Assembly (NCBI GenBank): GCA_016928835.1
Contig: JAFGJW010000001.1
Coordinates: 1-64,000 of the forward strand
Reading direction: 5' to 3'
Length of the DNA: 64,000 nucleotides
Source of the DNA: Candidatus Woesearchaeota archaeon
GTDB taxonomy: Archaea > Nanobdellota > Nanobdellia > Woesearchaeales > GW2011-AR15
The number at the start of each line of letters is the position of its first letter. Position 1 is the stretch's first letter. The notes under the pieces are model-generated. The model was not told where the DNA came from and ran no database searches. It worked only from the letters and a program-made list of their open reading frames with translations. The translations under genes were made by a program, and so were the position numbers. Below, piece by piece: positions 4,001 through 63,721 of this stretch.

Positions 4001-6508
4001 CTATCCACCTGTGGTACATTCATTGCTCCACTCGCCCCATAGACATCCTTCTATCGCAGTACACGAAATTTCAATAAAACAACTATCACAATTATCACCA
4101 GGGCAATATTTACATTGATTTTCATCCTCTGAATCTCTGTAACATCCCCAAGTATATGGACAATAGTCCTTGTTATTCTGAGAATCAATTGTGGTACAAC
4201 AACTATTTTTGCTGGGGGAAGCAGCATCCAGCATACAAGGTGGTTCTTGGGTTATGTCATAACAGGCTCCACCATTTTCCTCTTCTTGATAATAATAATA
4301 ACAATTAATGTTCTCTATACATCCTTCTCTTGATAGGGAGTTACAGTCTTGTTCAACACAAGCGCCATTATTACAGCCACCAGGACAATCAATACTCTCT
4401 GTTTGAGTGCAACTGTCTTGTCTGCATTCAAAAATTTTTACTTTATTTGCAGTATTGATACATTCACTCGGTTTGTGTTGAGATCTATCATAACATTCTG
4501 TTCTTTCACTACCGTCTGTCAGCCCGTATGTTCGACAGGAGCCATATCCACAACCATAGCTGGCAGGAACACAAGAGCCGCCCCAATAATCAAAGCACCA
4601 TTGACATGTTTGATCATTCTCGCATTGTTGAATTTTATAGGTATATGGATCTACTTCTGCGGTTATTGATTGTGCTGGAATATTATGCTGGCTGCAGGTT
4701 ATTAATTCAGTGGGATCACCTTCTCCCAACTCCCGAATTATTCCTCTCGGAGCGCATATAGCTTCATCAACCCTGAACTGTCTGAATAATTGAGAACTAG
4801 TTGGAGTTATTGAATGTCTTTCACATCCTTCAGGACAATTCCCTGGATCACATCCAATGCACGTATATTGATTGCATGTTGGCTCAAGATCGTCTTCATC
4901 TGGTATTCCATCGTTGTCATCATCTGGGTCAATATTATTGCCTGCACCATCGTTATCTGTGTCTTCTTGTTCATTCTCGTTCAATGGGAAGGCATCTAAT
5001 CCATCAATTACTGTGTCTCCATCACTGTCTGGCTCAACAGGACTCAGGCCTAGCACAACTTCAATGCCATCCAATAAATAATCATCATCACTATCTTCAT
5101 CTGTCGGGTCGGTGCCATAGCCATATTCATCGATATTGCTAAGATAGTCATTATCACCATCCTGTGCTGAATCATCATTTAAAGGATCTAGGCCAAATAA
5201 TATCTCCCAGCCGTCAGGCATTCCATCGCCATCTGTGTCTGGATTCAGTGCATTGGTGTACCACTGCACCTCAACATAATCAGAAGCGCCGTCATCATCA
5301 CTGTCCTCATCTTTTGGATCTGTGCCAAAATCATACTCTCTATTATTTGGCAAACCATCCCCATCATTATCTTGATTTGCACCAGGTGAATCAGCATCTT
5401 CTAAATCGAAATTATGCTCTCTTTCCCATGAATCTGGAAAACTATCATCATCCCTGTCATCCGGGTATTCATCCAAAGCATTTATCCTGCCGTCTTTATC
5501 ATAATCAACGTACGGAGAAATCTCTCCGCCCTCAAGGCCGGTTGAAATCAGGAAAGGTATGCCAGTAACATGCCCCAAAGGTGTAAAAACTTCTCCTCTT
5601 CCTATGCCGAAACTAGACGTCATTTTCTGGCATATCTCGCTCAACTTTCTCTCATTGCTGTAATTAGTGCTTATCTCGTCACCTGCATTAAGGTGACTGA
5701 AATGCCACATGATTATCGGGTCAACTTTTACCCTCCTCTCATTCCCATGAGGCTCTTGCCTAAAACTTGAAAACTCCAGACTTAGGCACTTGGGGATATA
5801 TTCAAAATAGCGGAAGCTGTTCAGGCTGGCTTCTGTCCTGAACCTAAGCTTTATTGTTGTCTTATCCTCATAGGGGTTATAAGAAAATTCCCTTTCAATC
5901 TCTGTTGGTGCTATCTTGCGCAGAGCTTCGCTATACTCTCGCAGCTCTTCATCAAATTTATCTTGATCTAGGCTGCCGTTCAGCTCTGTCACTATCTCTC
6001 TTACAAAAGCAGGCACTGTGCAATCCATATCCAGCTCTTTGACATTTATATCTGCACCATTGTCTGTCCCAATAAACCTGAGCTCAGCTTTATTGTTCAT
6101 GTTCTTTACACAAACATAATGCGGGGAATTTATGTCAAGTTCATTTAATTTAAAGCTATGGATTATCTCAATGCCCTTCATTAAAAATACATTCTCTTTT
6201 ACATCACGAAACTCATCATTAAGAAAAGGTGATTCCTGGAAAGATAATGCCTCATAACTCTTGCTTTGGTCAAAGATATAGAGCGCAGTAATGTCTGGTG
6301 GGAAAAAAGCGCTTATGTCAGTTGTCTTCTCCCTGCTGTTTTTGACATTGTTGACTGCGTTCCTAAGTTCTATCTCAAAATCAAAGAAAGAGGAATCTAT
6401 ATTCTCCTTATTCAGCATTGTAATAGCCTTAATGATCACTGTTAAAGTAATTACTATCACAATGGCAATCATTATAGGGATAAGAATATTTGTCTGCCCC
6501 TTTTTCAT
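4001..6508 (-). CDS. Membrane-anchored protein with thrombospondin type 3-like calcium repeats and Cys-rich tail
   Basis: 835 residues. An N-terminal MKKGQTN plus a long hydrophobic segment (~8-32) looks like a class III (pilin-type) signal or anchor. Residues ~45-325 are a mixed domain without a recognised family. Residues ~334-541 hold a run of DxDxDGxxD motifs (YDKDGRIN, NDGDGLPN, TDGDGMPDGW, SDGDTVIDG, DDDNDGIPDEDD), the calcium-binding pattern of thrombospondin type 3 repeats. Residues ~544-835 are rich in paired cysteines. An outward-facing calcium-stabilised stalk with a disulfide-rich end is likely. It is transcribed against its neighbours. Confidence 0.8.
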   Translation of the reverse strand: MKKGQTNILIPIMIAIVIVITLTVIIKAITMLNKENIDSSFFDFEIELRNAVNNVKNSREKTTDISAFFPPDITALYIFDQSKSYEALSFQESPFLNDEFRDVKENVFLMKGIEIIHSFKLNELDINSPHYVCVKNMNNKAELRFIGTDNGADINVKELDMDCTVPAFVREIVTELNGSLDQDKFDEELREYSEALRKIAPTEIEREFSYNPYEDKTTIKLRFRTEASLNSFRYFEYIPKCLSLEFSSFRQEPHGNERRVKVDPIIMWHFSHLNAGDEISTNYSNERKLSEICQKMTSSFGIGRGEVFTPLGHVTGIPFLISTGLEGGEISPYVDYDKDGRINALDEYPDDRDDDSFPDSWEREHNFDLEDADSPGANQDNDGDGLPNNREYDFGTDPKDEDSDDDGASDYVEVQWYTNALNPDTDGDGMPDGWEILFGLDPLNDDSAQDGDNDYLSNIDEYGYGTDPTDEDSDDDYLLDGIEVVLGLSPVEPDSDGDTVIDGLDAFPLNENEQEDTDNDGAGNNIDPDDDNDGIPDEDDLEPTCNQYTCIGCDPGNCPEGCERHSITPTSSQLFRQFRVDEAICAPRGIIRELGEGDPTELITCSQHNIPAQSITAEVDPYTYKIQQCENDQTCQWCFDYWGGSCVPASYGCGYGSCRTYGLTDGSERTECYDRSQHKPSECINTANKVKIFECRQDSCTQTESIDCPGGCNNGACVEQDCNSLSREGCIENINCYYYYQEEENGGACYDITQEPPCMLDAASPSKNSCCTTIDSQNNKDYCPYTWGCYRDSEDENQCKYCPGDNCDSCFIEISCTAIEGCLWGEWSNECTTGG

Positions 6509-57714: not shown

Positions 57715-59037
57715 TTAATTATTATTAAGTTCTTCTTTATATATGCTTCTTATTGGCTTCATTATCTTCCGAGGAATTGTCTCTGCATCATGAATTCTGA
57801 AGAATTTATTGCGTAATTCATCTTCTCTTTCTTTTGCTTCTTCAAGAAGCTCTTCTTTAAACTTATTAATTAAGTAACCTCTTTCTCCATTCTTATAACA
57901 GATGTACATCGCTAGCAATTCCTCATCCCTAACCTCTTTTGGTTTTTCGTAAGGTCTTCTTGGTTTGGAAAACAGAGGATATAACTTCATTGATTTTTTA
58001 CTGAACATGTCTTTTTTAAAATTAATTTCGCTAGGTTTTATACCAACTGCCTTGGAGTAAAGAAAAGCCTTTGCGCACATAGGGCATTTGTAGCACCATC
58101 TATCTTCAGAATTACCCGAGCATGACATCATGTATTTTAAAATACTTGAATATCTTTTTTTAAGTATCTTGTATTCAGCAATATTATATAAAGGCTCAAT
58201 AAAACTCATAATTGATATTCCTAAATCTTTAAATTGCTCATTCACTTTAGATATATATTCACTGCTTTGATCATAAGAGGGATATGCTTCATAGCCATCA
58301 TCATTTATATATTTGTCATTTAAATTTTGCTCGCAGCCAAAGGCTAAATATTTTGACTGATTATAATGAACTACAGGGAGCATCTCAAGTGCAAATGAAA
58401 GCATTGCGTTTGTAGTTACAAACTGACTTGTAATGTTCCCTGCTTGTGAATACATGTTGTCAATATCTTCTCTAATAATCTCAACTTCTCCATGTTCTTT
58501 GGCAAAATTGTTTAAAAGTCCCAGTTTGTATTTCTCCTCAATCATATCAGCTTCTGTTCGGGAAGCATCGTGAAAGTACACTGGATGGACTCGAAAGCCC
58601 AATTCTTTAGCAAGTTCAAAGCTAAGTAAACTGTCCTTGCCAAAACTTAGTCCTAATGAGACCCTTCTATCATCTAGTCCTTCTTTGTTTGTATTAAAGA
58701 ACTCCTTTTGCTCATTATTAAAAAATATCTCTCTGCTCCTAAAATCTTCAAGTATCCTTCCAGTTGATATATTTAATTCATCTGCAATTTTAGGTATATC
58801 CTTTTCAATACCAAGATTCACAATACCTTCAAACCAGGGTTTGGTCATATAATGGATGCTCCTTTTCTCAATTGAGTTTGCTAGTGTGTAAAGATAAAGG
58901 ATGTTTTCAGTTATTCTTTGGCAATTTGTGTGTCCGAGTTCTTCTATTGGTATATTGTAATGTACATATGAGCTTACTTGATTAAGTTTAAGTTTAATTT
59001 TGTTATTTTGAATAGAATGACTAGCTTTAAGATGCAT
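57715..59037 (-). CDS. PP-loop ATPase with QueC-like zinc site, unknown substrate
   Basis: 440 residues. LGLSFGKDSLLSFELAKELGF (near 127-147) is the PP-loop that binds ATP and activates a carbonyl as its adenylate. CSGNSEDRWCYKCPMC near 300-320 gives four cysteines spaced as in QueC-like zinc sites. N-terminal ~110 residues and the helical C-terminal ~90 are not recognised. Size and layout recall MurL, the bacterial epimerase that acts on a peptidoglycan precursor, but this is only an impression. Last of the KAM/ATP-grasp group. Confidence 0.7.
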   Translation of the reverse strand: MHLKASHSIQNNKIKLKLNQVSSYVHYNIPIEELGHTNCQRITENILYLYTLANSIEKRSIHYMTKPWFEGIVNLGIEKDIPKIADELNISTGRILEDFRSREIFFNNEQKEFFNTNKEGLDDRRVSLGLSFGKDSLLSFELAKELGFRVHPVYFHDASRTEADMIEEKYKLGLLNNFAKEHGEVEIIREDIDNMYSQAGNITSQFVTTNAMLSFALEMLPVVHYNQSKYLAFGCEQNLNDKYINDDGYEAYPSYDQSSEYISKVNEQFKDLGISIMSFIEPLYNIAEYKILKKRYSSILKYMMSCSGNSEDRWCYKCPMCAKAFLYSKAVGIKPSEINFKKDMFSKKSMKLYPLFSKPRRPYEKPKEVRDEELLAMYICYKNGERGYLINKFKEELLEEAKEREDELRNKFFRIHDAETIPRKIMKPIRSIYKEELNNN

Positions 59038-59341
59038 TAAATTTTTTTCAAATGATTTGCATATAAAAAATTTACCTTTTCTTTTAGACGGAGCAGTATA
59101 GTTTTTGAACTATGTATGCAAAAGAATTCGTCCCGCAATTGTTTTTCCCCATTTTTGTCTGGTTCATCAGGTTTGTTATGCTTACGTTTATAAATCTTTG
59201 TTTTCTTTCCTCTCTCGTATTGCAGTATTCAATCTCCAGTTCTTCAATATATACTAATACTGGATTTGGTCCGAGTTCTTCTGACAGAGTAAAGCTCAAT
59301 AGATCTGTATCACGTTTCTGCGCAAGATTTTGTTCTCCTGT
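59038..59341. other. Intergenic stretch with one doubtful minus-strand frame
   Basis: A 71-codon frame on the minus strand (59299 to 59084, TTG start, no ribosome-binding site) has protein-like composition (EELGPNPVLVYIEELEIEY) and is in phase with the end of the ATP-grasp gene, following its stop. It may be a short gene or the decayed tail of a longer ligase. Coding status is uncertain. Confidence 0.3.
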
Positions 59342-60343
59342 TTAGTATTTTTGTTTTTTGGAGCCGCCATCTAATGCTAGACTAAAAATTTTTAATATCA
59401 AATCCTCAAAAGAGTATCCAAATGCTTTTGCTGATCTAACAAACCCGCTGTCATGTGGATTAATGCCTGGGTTTGGATTTACTTCAAGGACATATGGTTC
59501 ATTATCTTTTACTCTAAAGTCAACCCTTGCGTATCCTTTGCATTTCATTATCTTAAAGCATTTAATTGCCAGTTCTTCAATCTTCTTTCTCAACTCTGAG
59601 TTAACTTCAGCAGGGCATTTTCCAGTTGACATTTTATAAAGTACAGAGCTCTCAATCCACTTTGCCTCAAACGGCAGGAATTTTGGAATGTTTTTAGGAA
59701 AATCAAATATTATTTCAGATAGAGGCAGCACAACTACATCTGAAGCTGTTCCGATCAATGCAGCATTTATTTCTCTGCCATCAATAAACTCTTCAACCAA
59801 AGCCGGCTGTTTATATAAATTCAGAACTTCCTTGACCTTTCTTTTAAGTTGTTTTGCATCAACAACATAAGAATTAAGTGTTATCCCAATGCTAGCATCC
59901 TCATTGACTGGCTTGACAATTAGCGGGTACATAAGGCCTTTTGCTTCTTGATTTTCGGACTGGAAAATCTGGAAATTTGGTGTTGTTATCTTGTTATTGA
60001 CCAGGATTTCTTTTGTTTTCTTTTTATCAAGGCACGTTGAAAGACAATTGCTATTATTTCCAGTAAAAGGAATGCATATCTTCTCAAGAAGTTCAGCAAT
60101 CTCTGCCTCTCCACTTGGCCTATCATCAATGCCCTCTGCTAAATTAAATATACAATCATACTTTCCCTTTAAAAGTTCGGATAAACAACTATCTACTCTT
60201 ACTAAGTCACAATCATGGCCCCTACTGATAAATACATGCTTTACTGCTTCAGCAGTAACCAGAATCTCATTATCAGCGATTTTTTCTTCTTCTTTCCTTG
60301 CTTTTGTGTCTTCGACTAGGTTATATATTACTGCTATTTGCAT
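59342..60343 (-). CDS. ATP-grasp ligase, D-Ala-D-Ala ligase-like
   Basis: 333 residues from ATG 60343 (MQIAVIYNLVEDTK); the longer start lies inside the upstream gene. FNLAEGIDDRPSGEAEIAELLE, IPFTGNN, LDKKKTKEIL, PLIVKPVNEDASIGI, EEFIDGREI, ARVDFRV and VLEVNPNPGINP are the ordered ATP-grasp and Ddl motifs; metal-binding acidic residues and the Asn-x-Pro-Gly end are present. Overlaps the fusion gene by 23 bases. It should join an amino acid or carboxylate to an amine; the substrate is unknown. Confidence 0.85.
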   Translation of the reverse strand: MQIAVIYNLVEDTKARKEEEKIADNEILVTAEAVKHVFISRGHDCDLVRVDSCLSELLKGKYDCIFNLAEGIDDRPSGEAEIAELLEKICIPFTGNNSNCLSTCLDKKKTKEILVNNKITTPNFQIFQSENQEAKGLMYPLIVKPVNEDASIGITLNSYVVDAKQLKRKVKEVLNLYKQPALVEEFIDGREINAALIGTASDVVVLPLSEIIFDFPKNIPKFLPFEAKWIESSVLYKMSTGKCPAEVNSELRKKIEELAIKCFKIMKCKGYARVDFRVKDNEPYVLEVNPNPGINPHDSGFVRSAKAFGYSFEDLILKIFSLALDGGSKKQKY

Positions 60344-62405
60344 TGAGTTGTACCTTTTTAACCGCTGTTGCCAAACCATTTCTTTTAACTGCTTCGTTGA
60401 ACACAGTATTTATAATTTCGTCATATGACATTCCGGCAGTAAAACATGATTTTGGAAACCTTGAGTTTTCTTTTGGATCGGGCATAAGTCCTGGAAGCGC
60501 GTTGACATCAATTACATTTGGGGTCCCCCTATTGTCAAGCCTGAGGTCCATCCTGCATAGGTCGACACAACCCAGGGCAGCATAGGCTTTTAGTGCAGTA
60601 TTTTTAATTTTTCTTTCAAGGTCTCTTGTGATTTTTGCAGGGCACACAATGGGGTCTATTGGATTATTTGGGTTGTCCCAATACCACTTTACTTCATACG
60701 AATCAAATTTTTGTATGCCTTCCGGCAGGTAGTCAAATGTAATCTCCACGATAGGAAGGACTCTTGGTGGGTTGTTGCCGATAATACCAACAGTAAACTC
60801 TCTTCCTTCCAAAAACTCTTCAGCAAGAGCAGGTTGTTTATAATCCTTAATTACAGTTCTCACTCTCTCCTTTAGTTCCTCTTCGTTAAAAACAAGAGAA
60901 TTGTTTTTTATCCCTTTTGATGACCCTTCTGCATTTGGTTTTACAATTAATGGGAAACTTAAATTGCTGTCGATCTTCTGGTTCCAATGTGCAAACAGCT
61001 GATACTTTGGTGTGGCAATTCCATGATACAACAAAATCTCCTTAGTTCTTTTCTTGTCCAATGTAACTGCCTGTGTCAAAATTCCTGAACCAGTGTACGG
61101 GATTTTTAGCATTTCAAGGATTGCAGGGATTTGGCTTTCTCTTGACTCGCCATGTAGGCCTTCTGCAATATTGAAAACAAAGTCGTAATTACCTGCTTTC
61201 ATCTTTTCATAAAAGTCTTCATCTGCCTCAACAAGTTCTGCATAGTGTCCCTGTTTTTCTAATGCTTGTTTAATTGCCTGTGGGACTGTAATTTCGTCAA
61301 ACTCAGCATAAAAATCATCAGGGATGTCTTTTTCAGGAAATTTCTTTAAATTAAACACAACAGCAATTTTCAGTGCATCTTTTTCTGTTTTTTCTGTTTT
61401 TATTCTTGGATTAGTGTATTCAATTATTTTTCCCTCAAAGTTCTTTAGGATTATTTTTTCCCTATTTTTATACTGGACATAATCTGGAAGAACTGGGATT
61501 TTTCCTCCCCCATAAGAATCGATTATGTACTGAGGGATGCAAAGCCCTGAAGTAAAACCGGTTAGGTTCTCAATAATGTCCATCCCTTCCTGGACAGATG
61601 TTCTGAAATGATCAGTTCCCTTCACCTGATCTGCTTGGTACATGTAGTATGGCTTTACCCGGATTTTCAGTAGCCTATGGAACAATTCCTTCATGACTTC
61701 TGGACTGTCATTAACCCCTTTTAAAACTATACACTGGTTTCCAAGGGGGATACCAGCTTCTGCGAGCATCTTGCATGCACGGCTGCTCTCAGGAGTTATT
61801 TCTAACGGATGCTCAAAATGTAGGTTCATATAAAGCGGATGATATCTTTTCAGAATATTGCAGAGATGCTTTGTGACTCTTGTTGGCAAGGAGCATGGCA
61901 CTCTTGTTCCAATCCTAATTATCTCAACATGTTCAATTGCCCTTAGTTTTTTAAGGATAAATTCCAACAGAGAATCTTTAAGCATTAAAGGATCTCCACC
62001 TGAAACAATAACATCTCTGATTTCTTTATGATCCTTTATATAATTCATTGCATTCAACAAGTGCTCTTTTGTTATGTCAACCTGTCTTCCGACTTTTCTT
62101 TTACGGGTGCAGAACCTGCAGTACATAGCGCACTTATTGCTAACTAAAAACAATGCCCTGTCTGGATACCTGTGAACTAGAAACGGGACAGGCGTGTGGC
62201 TCTCTTCATGCAGGGGATCTTCTTCATTGACAGTGTCATTTAGTTCCTCAATGCTAGGAATGCACTGTTTCCATATAGGATCATTCTTCTCTTTTATCAA
62301 GCTAAGATAATAGCTATTAACCTTCATTGGGTATCTTCTTTTTACCCTTTCAATATCTTTTATTTCTTTATTTGACAAATTAAATCTGCTATACAGCTGC
62401 TTCAT
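60321..62405 (-). CDS. Lysine 2,3-aminomutase fused to a D-Ala-D-Ala-type ATP-grasp ligase
   Basis: 694 residues. Residues 1-~335 are a radical-SAM aminomutase: CAMYCRFC (Cys92, 96, 99), SGGDPLML, YQADQVKG with Asp259 and IIDSYGGGKIP with Asp296 and Lys302, corresponding to the two lysine-binding aspartates and the PLP lysine of known enzymes, so L-lysine to L-beta-lysine is the likely reaction. Residues ~346-690 are a second Ddl-like ATP-grasp (FNIAEGLHGESRESQIPAILE, KPNAEGSSKGI, EEFLEGREFTVGII, RMDLRLD, DVNALPGLMPD). GGAGG lies nine bases before the ATG. Confidence 0.9.
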   Translation of the reverse strand: MKQLYSRFNLSNKEIKDIERVKRRYPMKVNSYYLSLIKEKNDPIWKQCIPSIEELNDTVNEEDPLHEESHTPVPFLVHRYPDRALFLVSNKCAMYCRFCTRKRKVGRQVDITKEHLLNAMNYIKDHKEIRDVIVSGGDPLMLKDSLLEFILKKLRAIEHVEIIRIGTRVPCSLPTRVTKHLCNILKRYHPLYMNLHFEHPLEITPESSRACKMLAEAGIPLGNQCIVLKGVNDSPEVMKELFHRLLKIRVKPYYMYQADQVKGTDHFRTSVQEGMDIIENLTGFTSGLCIPQYIIDSYGGGKIPVLPDYVQYKNREKIILKNFEGKIIEYTNPRIKTEKTEKDALKIAVVFNLKKFPEKDIPDDFYAEFDEITVPQAIKQALEKQGHYAELVEADEDFYEKMKAGNYDFVFNIAEGLHGESRESQIPAILEMLKIPYTGSGILTQAVTLDKKRTKEILLYHGIATPKYQLFAHWNQKIDSNLSFPLIVKPNAEGSSKGIKNNSLVFNEEELKERVRTVIKDYKQPALAEEFLEGREFTVGIIGNNPPRVLPIVEITFDYLPEGIQKFDSYEVKWYWDNPNNPIDPIVCPAKITRDLERKIKNTALKAYAALGCVDLCRMDLRLDNRGTPNVIDVNALPGLMPDPKENSRFPKSCFTAGMSYDEIINTVFNEAVKRNGLATAVKKVQLNANSSNI

Positions 62406-62589
62406 TGCTAAATGCCTCCTTTGTTATTATATAATTCAGGTATTGATTAGGATTAAGAAAGAATCTAACTATAACTCTTAAGTGTCCAATACAAACTAGA
62501 AATAAAAAGCCACATCCGCCCCAGAGGAACTTCCAGTAGCTTTTCGGAACGTCCAGCAGTCTTCTCTTCATCTTTCCTTTACCGGACAT
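62389..62589 (-). CDS. Doubtful small basic membrane peptide upstream of the fusion gene
   Basis: 66 codons, MSGKGKMKRRLLDVPKSYWK, then a hydrophobic stretch with WGGCGFLFLVCIG. A weak AAAGGAAAG lies before an internal Met (codon 7). It overlaps the fusion gene's start and its ribosome-binding site by 17 bases, which argues against it. Kept as low-confidence because it lies in the operon and has a coherent membrane helix. Confidence 0.25.
   Translation of the reverse strand: MSGKGKMKRRLLDVPKSYWKFLWGGCGFLFLVCIGHLRVIVRFFLNPNQYLNYIITKEAFSNEAAV
62426..62435 (-). promoter_or_regulatory. TATA box candidate for the KAM-ATP-grasp gene
   Basis: ATTATATAAT centred about 25 bases upstream of ATG 62405. 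A ribosome-binding site at 62415-62419 also exists, so the gene may be read both from its own promoter and from the peptide transcript upstream. Confidence 0.4.
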
Positions 62590-62702
62590 CCCATGGGTTA
62601 TGATGGAAATGAACCATCGCTATCAGATTTTTTATGTAAATATAAGATTATTTTTAAAAAATAAAAAAGTTTTGGTTGAGTAATTAAATATTTTTTATTG
62701 TA

Positions 62703-62786
62703 TTACCAATCGTCTTCGTCGTCATCATCGCCTGAGTCATACTCTTCTTCATCTTCATATTCTTCGTATTCTTCTTCATATGCCAT
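62703..62786 (-). CDS. 27-residue highly acidic peptide ending in Trp
   Basis: The product consists of Met-Ala, four Tyr set among Glu runs (YEEEYEEYEDEEEYD), one Ser-Gly, then DDDDEDDW and stop: 19 of 27 residues are Asp or Glu, with no basic residue. A near-perfect ribosome-binding site (GGAGGT, complement of 62795-62800) lies eight bases before ATG 62786, so it is very probably translated. It follows the zinc-ribbon peptide gene by 19 bases. The acidic C-terminus with Trp recalls the EDWGE end of LysW amino-group carriers; alternatively it is a precursor or a small binding protein. Confidence 0.7.
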   Translation of the reverse strand: MAYEEEYEEYEDEEEYDSGDDDDEDDW

Positions 62787-62794
62787 TCTATTCA

Positions 62795-62800
62795 ACCTCC
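62795..62800 (-). promoter_or_regulatory. Strong ribosome-binding site of the acidic peptide gene
   Basis: GGAGGT on the minus strand, eight bases before ATG 62786. Most genes in this window have weak or no such sites, so its strength argues for high translation of a 27-residue product. Confidence 0.75.
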
Positions 62801-62805
62801 TTGTT

Positions 62806-62943
62806 TTATAGTGGTTTACCGCAATGCGGGCATATTATTGAAAACCCCTCTATAATCGCTTTCTCTTCAATCTTTCTCCTGCAGTGTTTGCAGATAATGA
62901 TCTCCACAGCATTACTCTTTGAAACAGAGTTGCTAATGCCCAT
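62806..62943 (-). CDS. 45-residue zinc-ribbon peptide
   Basis: CKHCRRKIEEKAIIEGFSII then CPHCGKPL: two CxxC pairs 20 residues apart, a single zinc ribbon after an 18-residue polar N-terminus. TATA-rich TTTATATATATAAT centred about 25 bases upstream of ATG 62943 fits a leaderless start. The spacing of the two CxxC pairs resembles the globular part of LysW, which normally continues into an acidic tail; here the acidic part is a separate gene directly downstream. Confidence 0.7.
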   Translation of the reverse strand: MGISNSVSKSNAVEIIICKHCRRKIEEKAIIEGFSIICPHCGKPL

Positions 62944-62960
62944 TCTACAGACTTAAACTG

Positions 62961-62980
62961 ATTATATATATAAATATAAA
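62961..62980 (-). promoter_or_regulatory. TATA box of the zinc-ribbon and acidic peptide operon
   Basis: An uninterrupted A/T run (ATTATATATATAAATATAAA on the plus strand) about 18-37 bases upstream of ATG 62943, the strongest TATA-like sequence in this region. It likely starts the transcript that continues into the acidic peptide and perhaps the ligase genes. Confidence 0.5.
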
Positions 62981-63069
62981 GTAGAAAAAATCAACTGTTT
63001 TTTTCACCAGAGTTACTAAATTAAAATAATGCCGGCTTATTATAGACTAACCATTGTGTGCAAAGAGAT

Positions 63070-63633
63070 TTATTCCTTTTTCCTTTTAAGGAAAAATTCT
63101 TTCATTGGATACTCCTTTTTATCCAGTATCTCGTATAAGAGCCCGATGGGACTCTGGGTAATTACTTTATCTATAGAAAACGGATAGACTCTTTGAATCT
63201 CAATCTCTCGAGCGAATTTTGTCTGCATCCGCACAAGATACCGGTCCATTTGTTGAATGTCCCTAAATCCCATTAATAGTATATGGGACACATTTGATTG
63301 GGGAATACGATACGCATTAATAACATAAGGAATCTGCTTAATCCGCTCAGATATCTGTTCATCAGAATACTCCTCCCAAACTTCAGGTGTCAGTTTGATG
63401 ATCAACATGACCATTATGTTGATGCCTATCTTTTTCATGTCAATTATTGGGACATAGCCTTTAATGATGCCTGTTTGCTCCAGCTTGTGTCTAATTTTAA
63501 ATACGGCCTGAGGAGACAGACCCATTTTCTTCGCGATTTCTGTGTCAGGTATCTTAGCCTGTAAAATTATGTTCTTTAATACTTCTTGGTCATTCTTTGT
63601 TAACTTAGGCAACTCTCTGTCAGGGTTTTGCAT
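63070..63633 (-). CDS. Lrp/AsnC-family regulator
   Basis: 187 residues from ATG 63633, seven fewer than from ATG 63654. Winged helix KLTKNDQEVLKNIILQAKIPDTEIAKKMGLSPQAVFKIRHKLEQTGII, then a RAM-like domain (VMLIIKLTPEVWEE, NVSHILLMGFRDIQQMDRYL) and a C-terminal extension of ~35 residues with KVITQSPIGLLYEIL. Larger than standard Lrp. Located just upstream of the peptide/ligase operon on the same strand; regulation by lysine or another amino acid is inferred. Confidence 0.85.
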   Translation of the reverse strand: MQNPDRELPKLTKNDQEVLKNIILQAKIPDTEIAKKMGLSPQAVFKIRHKLEQTGIIKGYVPIIDMKKIGINIMVMLIIKLTPEVWEEYSDEQISERIKQIPYVINAYRIPQSNVSHILLMGFRDIQQMDRYLVRMQTKFAREIEIQRVYPFSIDKVITQSPIGLLYEILDKKEYPMKEFFLKRKKE

Positions 63634-63721
63634 TTTGTTTTTTAGAATAAACACAACTTATTTAAACCTTTTTATTGGAGTCTAGAGATCCATTGAACAG
63701 AATCTAGTATTTGGTACTAAT

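Follow-up and report, generated by a model that had tools for sequence, protein, structure and literature searches.

The question raised by this locus is whether a lysine 2,3-aminomutase fused to an ATP-grasp ligase, a second such ligase, a PP-loop ATPase, and two mini-proteins, encoded side by side in an archaeal genome, constitute one system for building a β-lysine-containing product. The window, i.e., the whole stretch of 64,000 nucleotides analysed here, covers positions 1 to 64,000 (forward strand) of contig JAFGJW010000001.1 from Candidatus Woesearchaeota archaeon (GCA_016928835.1); statements about the whole source genome rest on genome searches. An ORF check together with Pfam and NCBIfam searches placed all five genes on the minus strand, as given in a preliminary description that had taken them as a single system. 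They belong to two unrelated modules, one of enzymes and the other of mini-proteins.

Gene layout and the aminomutase domain

The radical SAM/PLP-type KAM domain (residues 1–335; 61401–62405) and the Ddl-type ATP-grasp ligase domain DDL1 (60321–61400) are encoded in a single ORF of 694 residues (60321–62405). The second Ddl-type ATP-grasp ligase, LIG2, has its longest ORF at 59342–60379, for which the ATG at 60343 is the better start, yielding a protein of 333 residues (59342–60343) and reducing the reported overlap with the fusion gene to 23 nt. It is followed by a degraded second PP-loop (MurL-like) gene at approximately 59043–59302, previously overlooked, and by PPL (57715–59037), a MurL-like PP-loop ATPase of 440 residues with an SFGKDS motif. 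On the other side of KAM, an intergenic stretch (62406–62702) separates the enzymes from an acidic peptide of 27 residues (62703–62786; GGAGG Shine-Dalgarno sequence, C-terminal DDW), a zinc-ribbon mini-protein of 45 residues with two C-x2-C motifs (62806–62943), and an Lrp-like regulator heading the mini-protein module (63070–63654; Pfam HTH_24; LrpA, 1e-10), the meaning of which had likewise been missed. The intergenic stretch includes a T-rich end after the acidic gene, a TATA-like stretch, and a Shine-Dalgarno sequence before KAM; it holds no homologous ORF and gave no Rfam match to a known RNA, the lysine riboswitch included. A 66-residue ORF before KAM (62389–62589) was rejected as a gene, being without a homologue.

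The fusion protein matched the Pfam families Radical_SAM (1.5e-15) and LAM_C (2.8e-16), and residues 8–334 of the KAM domain matched the solved lysine 2,3-aminomutase 2A5H (8e-113). In the alignment, KAM keeps the CxxxCxxC motif, R134, D293, D330, and the PLP-binding lysine K337 (2A5H numbering). Every close KAM (at least 52% identity) spanning those positions likewise keeps the [4Fe-4S] cysteines, the PLP-binding lysine, the carboxylate arginine, and the two aspartates that hold the lysine ε-amine in 2A5H. The residue test is discriminating, since a distant relative of 438 residues (G135), used as a contrast sequence, has lost both aspartates. The cut-off of the KamA subfamily TIGR00238 was reached (306 versus 199), and that of the AblA equivalog TIGR03820 was not (456.3 versus 525.4 bits). 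This score notwithstanding, the KAM domain very probably makes β-lysine, because the lysine-specific residues are kept in the close KAMs, and its original assignment to the β-lysine type is upheld by the presence of all lysine-binding residues tested. KAM shares with AblA/KamA (2A5H) the catalytic residues for radical SAM and PLP chemistry as well as the lysine-binding aspartates, and differs in that its C-terminal LAM_C region is shortened and leads into a Ddl-type ligase domain.

A conserved cluster with two ligase lineages

Among 353 genomes of the order Woesearchaeales, the fusion query found relatives in 42 (E ≤ 1e-40), and a close KAM was present in 18. In 15 of these 18 genomes, a Ddl-type ligase is part of the KAM gene or lies no more than 10 kb from it; the remaining three KAMs are on short contigs or at contig edges, and in two of the genomes concerned (G057 and G061) the ligases and PPL are on another contig. 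The recurrent cluster consists of KAM (fused or separate), a DDL1-like ligase, a LIG2-like ligase, and PPL, which adjoins a ligase in 12 genomes and is missing from three clusters (G270, G054, and G300). The enzyme set recurs across the order and is not a chance assembly, so that the earlier grouping of the KAM–ligase fusion, the second ligase, and the PP-loop ATPase into one system holds. A counter-case is a Nanoarchaeota contig (L042) with a close KAM and no ligase nearby. Eight clusters additionally encode a PLP-dependent enzyme of the Orn/DAP/Arg-decarboxylase family, nearest to DAP, N-citrylornithine, and D-Orn/D-Lys decarboxylases, which a genome search did not find in the source genome. 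ATP-grasp_4/LAL-type ligases (six proteins in four genomes) and GNATs (clusters G054, G136, and G300) also occur. A search of the open-licence literature retrieved no description of the KAM/ligase/PPL set, in keeping with the original statement that no described system with this gene set was known; the three-enzyme β-lysine ligation core is conserved and, within the reach of these searches, undescribed. A comparable pair is PylB–PylC of pyrrolysine biosynthesis, a radical SAM lysine mutase and an ATP-grasp ligase joining the rearranged amino acid to another; the present set differs in having a KAM-family aminomutase, two Ddl-type ligases, and a MurL-like protein.

Several further loci were observed. 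In Candidatus Methanoliparum thermophilum (L041, 8806–10873), a KAM–Ddl plus Ddl set with a 57–60% identical KAM has broken reading frames, which may reflect assembly errors, or transfer between phyla followed by decay. In G008 (L045), a sister genome, the KAM–Ddl fusion is frameshifted, a 21-residue Lys/Ala-rich mini-ORF lies upstream of the cluster (770–835), and PPL is followed by a gene (4657–5805) of Peptidase_S58, a family that includes β-aminopeptidases. At six loci (L052, L053, L108, L109, L110, and L112), a LIG2-side ligase is paired, in the absence of KAM, with a protein of ~305 residues matching LPG_synthase_C (seven of eight members; 5.8e-15), and the two probably form another amide-forming pair in related archaea.

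Both ligases of the window score far over the cut-off of the Ddl superfamily domain PF07478 (122 and 117 bits versus 24; Dala_Dala_lig_C, 2.6e-35 for DDL1 and 7.6e-34 for LIG2), and the solved relatives nearest to DDL1 are D-Ala-D-Ala ligases. The ATP-grasp fold and the expected acyl-phosphate chemistry are shared with the superfamily. In contrast to D-Ala-D-Ala ligases, both missed the NCBIfam Ddl cut-offs (NF002378, 196.8 and 159 versus 243; TIGR01205, 163.7 and 145 versus 245.65) and lacked, in a pattern check, the HGxxGEDG and C-terminal PROSITE-type Ddl signatures, and no Mur pathway accompanies the two ligases. Alignments with solved Ddl enzymes showed changes in the HGxxGEDG stretch and in the loop after the conserved Asn, which contacts the second substrate. 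DDL1 and LIG2 probably join amino acids other than the D-Ala-D-Ala pair. In a maximum-likelihood tree of 43 ligases, a bipartition (98/94) separates a DDL1 side from a LIG2 side, and the KAM-fused DDL1 domains form one clade (100/100). Since 12 clusters contain one ligase from each side of this split, the tree indicates that two distinct, ancient ligase roles are maintained.

The PP-loop ATPase and the proposed pathway

PPL of the window alone gave weak matches to QueC (Pfam, 0.003) and MurL (17 bits), and 11 of 13 members of its family matched the MurL profile NF041275 (best, 3.1e-12 and 45.7 bits), none of the members tested reaching the equivalog cut-off of 700 bits. The match is collinear (profile positions 228–445 of 447 for the best-scoring member, between 99 and 361 for others), and the two proteins are similar in length (~440 residues) and alike in the PP-loop carboxylate adenylation expected of them. 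Judged by these profiles, PPL is a distant MurL homologue, differing from MurL in its remoteness, in being without Mur partners (MurD2/Mur ligase), and in its setting among Ddl-type ligases and an aminomutase. MurL depends on ATP, sets AMP free, and inverts a peptide's terminal residue, by a mechanism proposed to involve terminal adenylation (PMC5808125, PMC8788868). From this homology and this chemistry, we propose that PPL would activate and invert the carboxyl end of the ligase product.

Because the similarity to MurL is remote and the structure search gives QatC and QueC, PPL could ligate or amidate instead. Its AlphaFold2 model (pLDDT, 91.3; pTM, 0.91) had QatC as the best solved match in Foldseek, followed by QueC and Cap9, as would suit, together with the Pfam QueC match, a carboxylate activator of the QueC/QatC kind, which would install an amide or nitrile at a peptide or protein end in an otherwise identical peptide pathway. 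We consider this unlikely, as the sequence profiles favour MurL and further Qat or queuosine genes were not observed next to PPL; a defence role was rejected, PADLOC giving no match of PPL to a defence-type QatC model. PDB sequence searches with PPL produced no matches, and a search for relatives on plasmids yielded a weak Pseudonocardia match only.

Members of the PPL family unaccompanied by KAM or ligases are present in at least 15 genomes, and the PPLs of the clusters are not monophyletic but of two types, with four changes on the PPL tree; since they do not form one clade, PPL has probably been recruited or exchanged more than once. The genome G057 has both types, as two intact genes in tandem. 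In the window, the remnant between LIG2 and PPL (59043–59302) scored 37 bits in tblastn against the PPL of G024 (maximum in 60 codon shuffles, 21 bits); its frameshifted pieces match PPL residues ~141–184 and ~403–463, and several PPL homologues match collinearly. By these matches, the window holds one PPL type intact, together with a remnant that most resembles the second type. Outside the cluster, PPL relatives in G020, G250, and G267 (L147, L149, and L152) share conserved small neighbours of ~65–140 residues.

Taken as a whole, the enzymes at 57715–62405 are best read as a compact NRPS-independent pathway to a small β-lysine-containing peptide or amide, to which we assign a probability of roughly 0.55. 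In this pathway, the KAM domain would convert L-lysine into β-lysine and deliver it to DDL1 in the same protein; the two ligases, DDL1 and LIG2, would each activate one carboxylate by phosphorylation and link it as an amide, so that a di- or tripeptide results; and the MurL-like PPL would adenylate the terminal carboxylate of the peptide and then epimerise that residue. In related lineages, a GNAT, additional ATP-grasp ligases, or the DAP-decarboxylase-like PLP enzyme may process the product further. D-centres are the site of action of DAP and D-Orn/D-Lys decarboxylases, and for this reason the cluster decarboxylase would fit an upstream epimerase, though the source genome is without it. The more specific version, a DPANN-specific, NRPS-independent line in which a KAM–ligase fusion and the first MurL-type ATP-dependent epimerase outside peptidoglycan synthesis yield a β-lysine peptide with a D-configured end, decarboxylated in some lineages, is put forward tentatively.

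Two other products were weighed. AblA supplies β-lysine for osmolytes in methanogens, and with this precedent and the GNATs of three clusters, β-lysine here could be, or become, an osmolyte (N-ε-acetyl-β-lysine or an acetylated peptide solute). This appears improbable, because AblB was not found: none of 60 relatives, the source genome included, had an AblB over the cut-off, whereas a control search was positive. Moreover, the cluster GNATs do not score as AblB, and acetyl-β-lysine would not need two ligases. The osmolyte-only use named as an alternative in the preliminary description is accordingly disfavoured, as is its wall-like polymer. The Ddl-type ligases and the MurL homologue belong to families associated with walls, and LIG2 weakly matches part of Ddl_archaea, the pseudomurein ligase of archaea (62 bits versus a cut-off of 500), so that a pseudomurein- or murein-like wall precursor with β-lysine might be imagined; Mur_ligase_M proteins were absent from the source genome and from G001, G005, and G008 in searches with positive controls, which makes such a precursor quite improbable.

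The Lrp-like regulator and the mini-proteins

Apart from the window, G008, the sister genome, is the one place where a zinc ribbon and an acidic peptide recur next to KAM (53% and 68% identity), and when 867 kb of related loci are taken together with the window, a strongly acidic mini-ORF preceded by a Shine-Dalgarno sequence occurs just twice, namely in these two places; nearly all enzyme clusters are without such mini-proteins. A profile search detected zinc-ribbon homologues in many relatives, and in 10 of the 12 homologous loci inspected the zinc ribbon lies downstream of an Lrp-like regulator 44–74% identical to that at 63070–63654, at a distance of ~1 kb in L165 and less elsewhere. Nine of these 10 genomes (G003, G006, G007, G010, G013, G014, G015, G029, and G039) have no KAM–ligase cluster. 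Because the zinc ribbon follows the regulator, also in genomes devoid of the cluster, the mini-proteins are assigned by gene order to the Lrp-regulator module, their adjacency to the enzymes being a matter of local neighbourhood. Their homologues are thus consistently apart from the enzymes, the outcome that the preliminary description itself had named as refuting; it refutes the earlier inclusion of the peptides in the ligation system and disfavours a modified protein as its product.

A role of the acidic peptide or the zinc ribbon as a LysW-like or RiPP-like carrier or substrate of the ligases, suggested by their position here and in G008 and by the likeness of the C-terminal DDW to the EDWGE of LysW, is rejected on this co-occurrence pattern as very improbable, the more so as no mini-protein of the window matched the LysW Pfam family and the ligases are Ddl-type, not RimK-type. 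The resemblance to LysW/amino-group carrier systems lies in small zinc-ribbon and acidic proteins near ATP-grasp enzymes; the difference is that the mini-proteins here go with an Lrp module and are missing from most ligase clusters.

The regulator/zinc-ribbon pair (62703–63654, minus strand, in the window; L161–L163 and L165–L171) appears as a conserved operon across Woesearchaeales, to which some genomes add an acidic peptide and one more zinc ribbon: the acidic peptide follows the zinc ribbon in three of the 10 loci (G003, G006, and G007), ending in DW in the latter two, and a further small zinc ribbon is present in G003 and G007. The acidic peptide might mimic DNA or serve as a co-regulator, and it is possible that the Lrp-like regulator controls the enzymes in this family.

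The genomes of Woesearchaeota and other DPANN archaea are tiny, and few secondary metabolites are known from them. A multi-enzyme cluster that is conserved among them and commits lysine to a ligated β-lysine product would be a concrete, testable metabolite pathway in these archaea, and could bear on their interaction with hosts or neighbours. The epimerase reading, if true, would extend MurL-type ATP-driven epimerisation beyond cell-wall synthesis. With the mini-proteins set apart, another conserved oddity also comes into view: an Lrp regulator accompanied by a zinc ribbon and, in some genomes, an acidic mini-protein.
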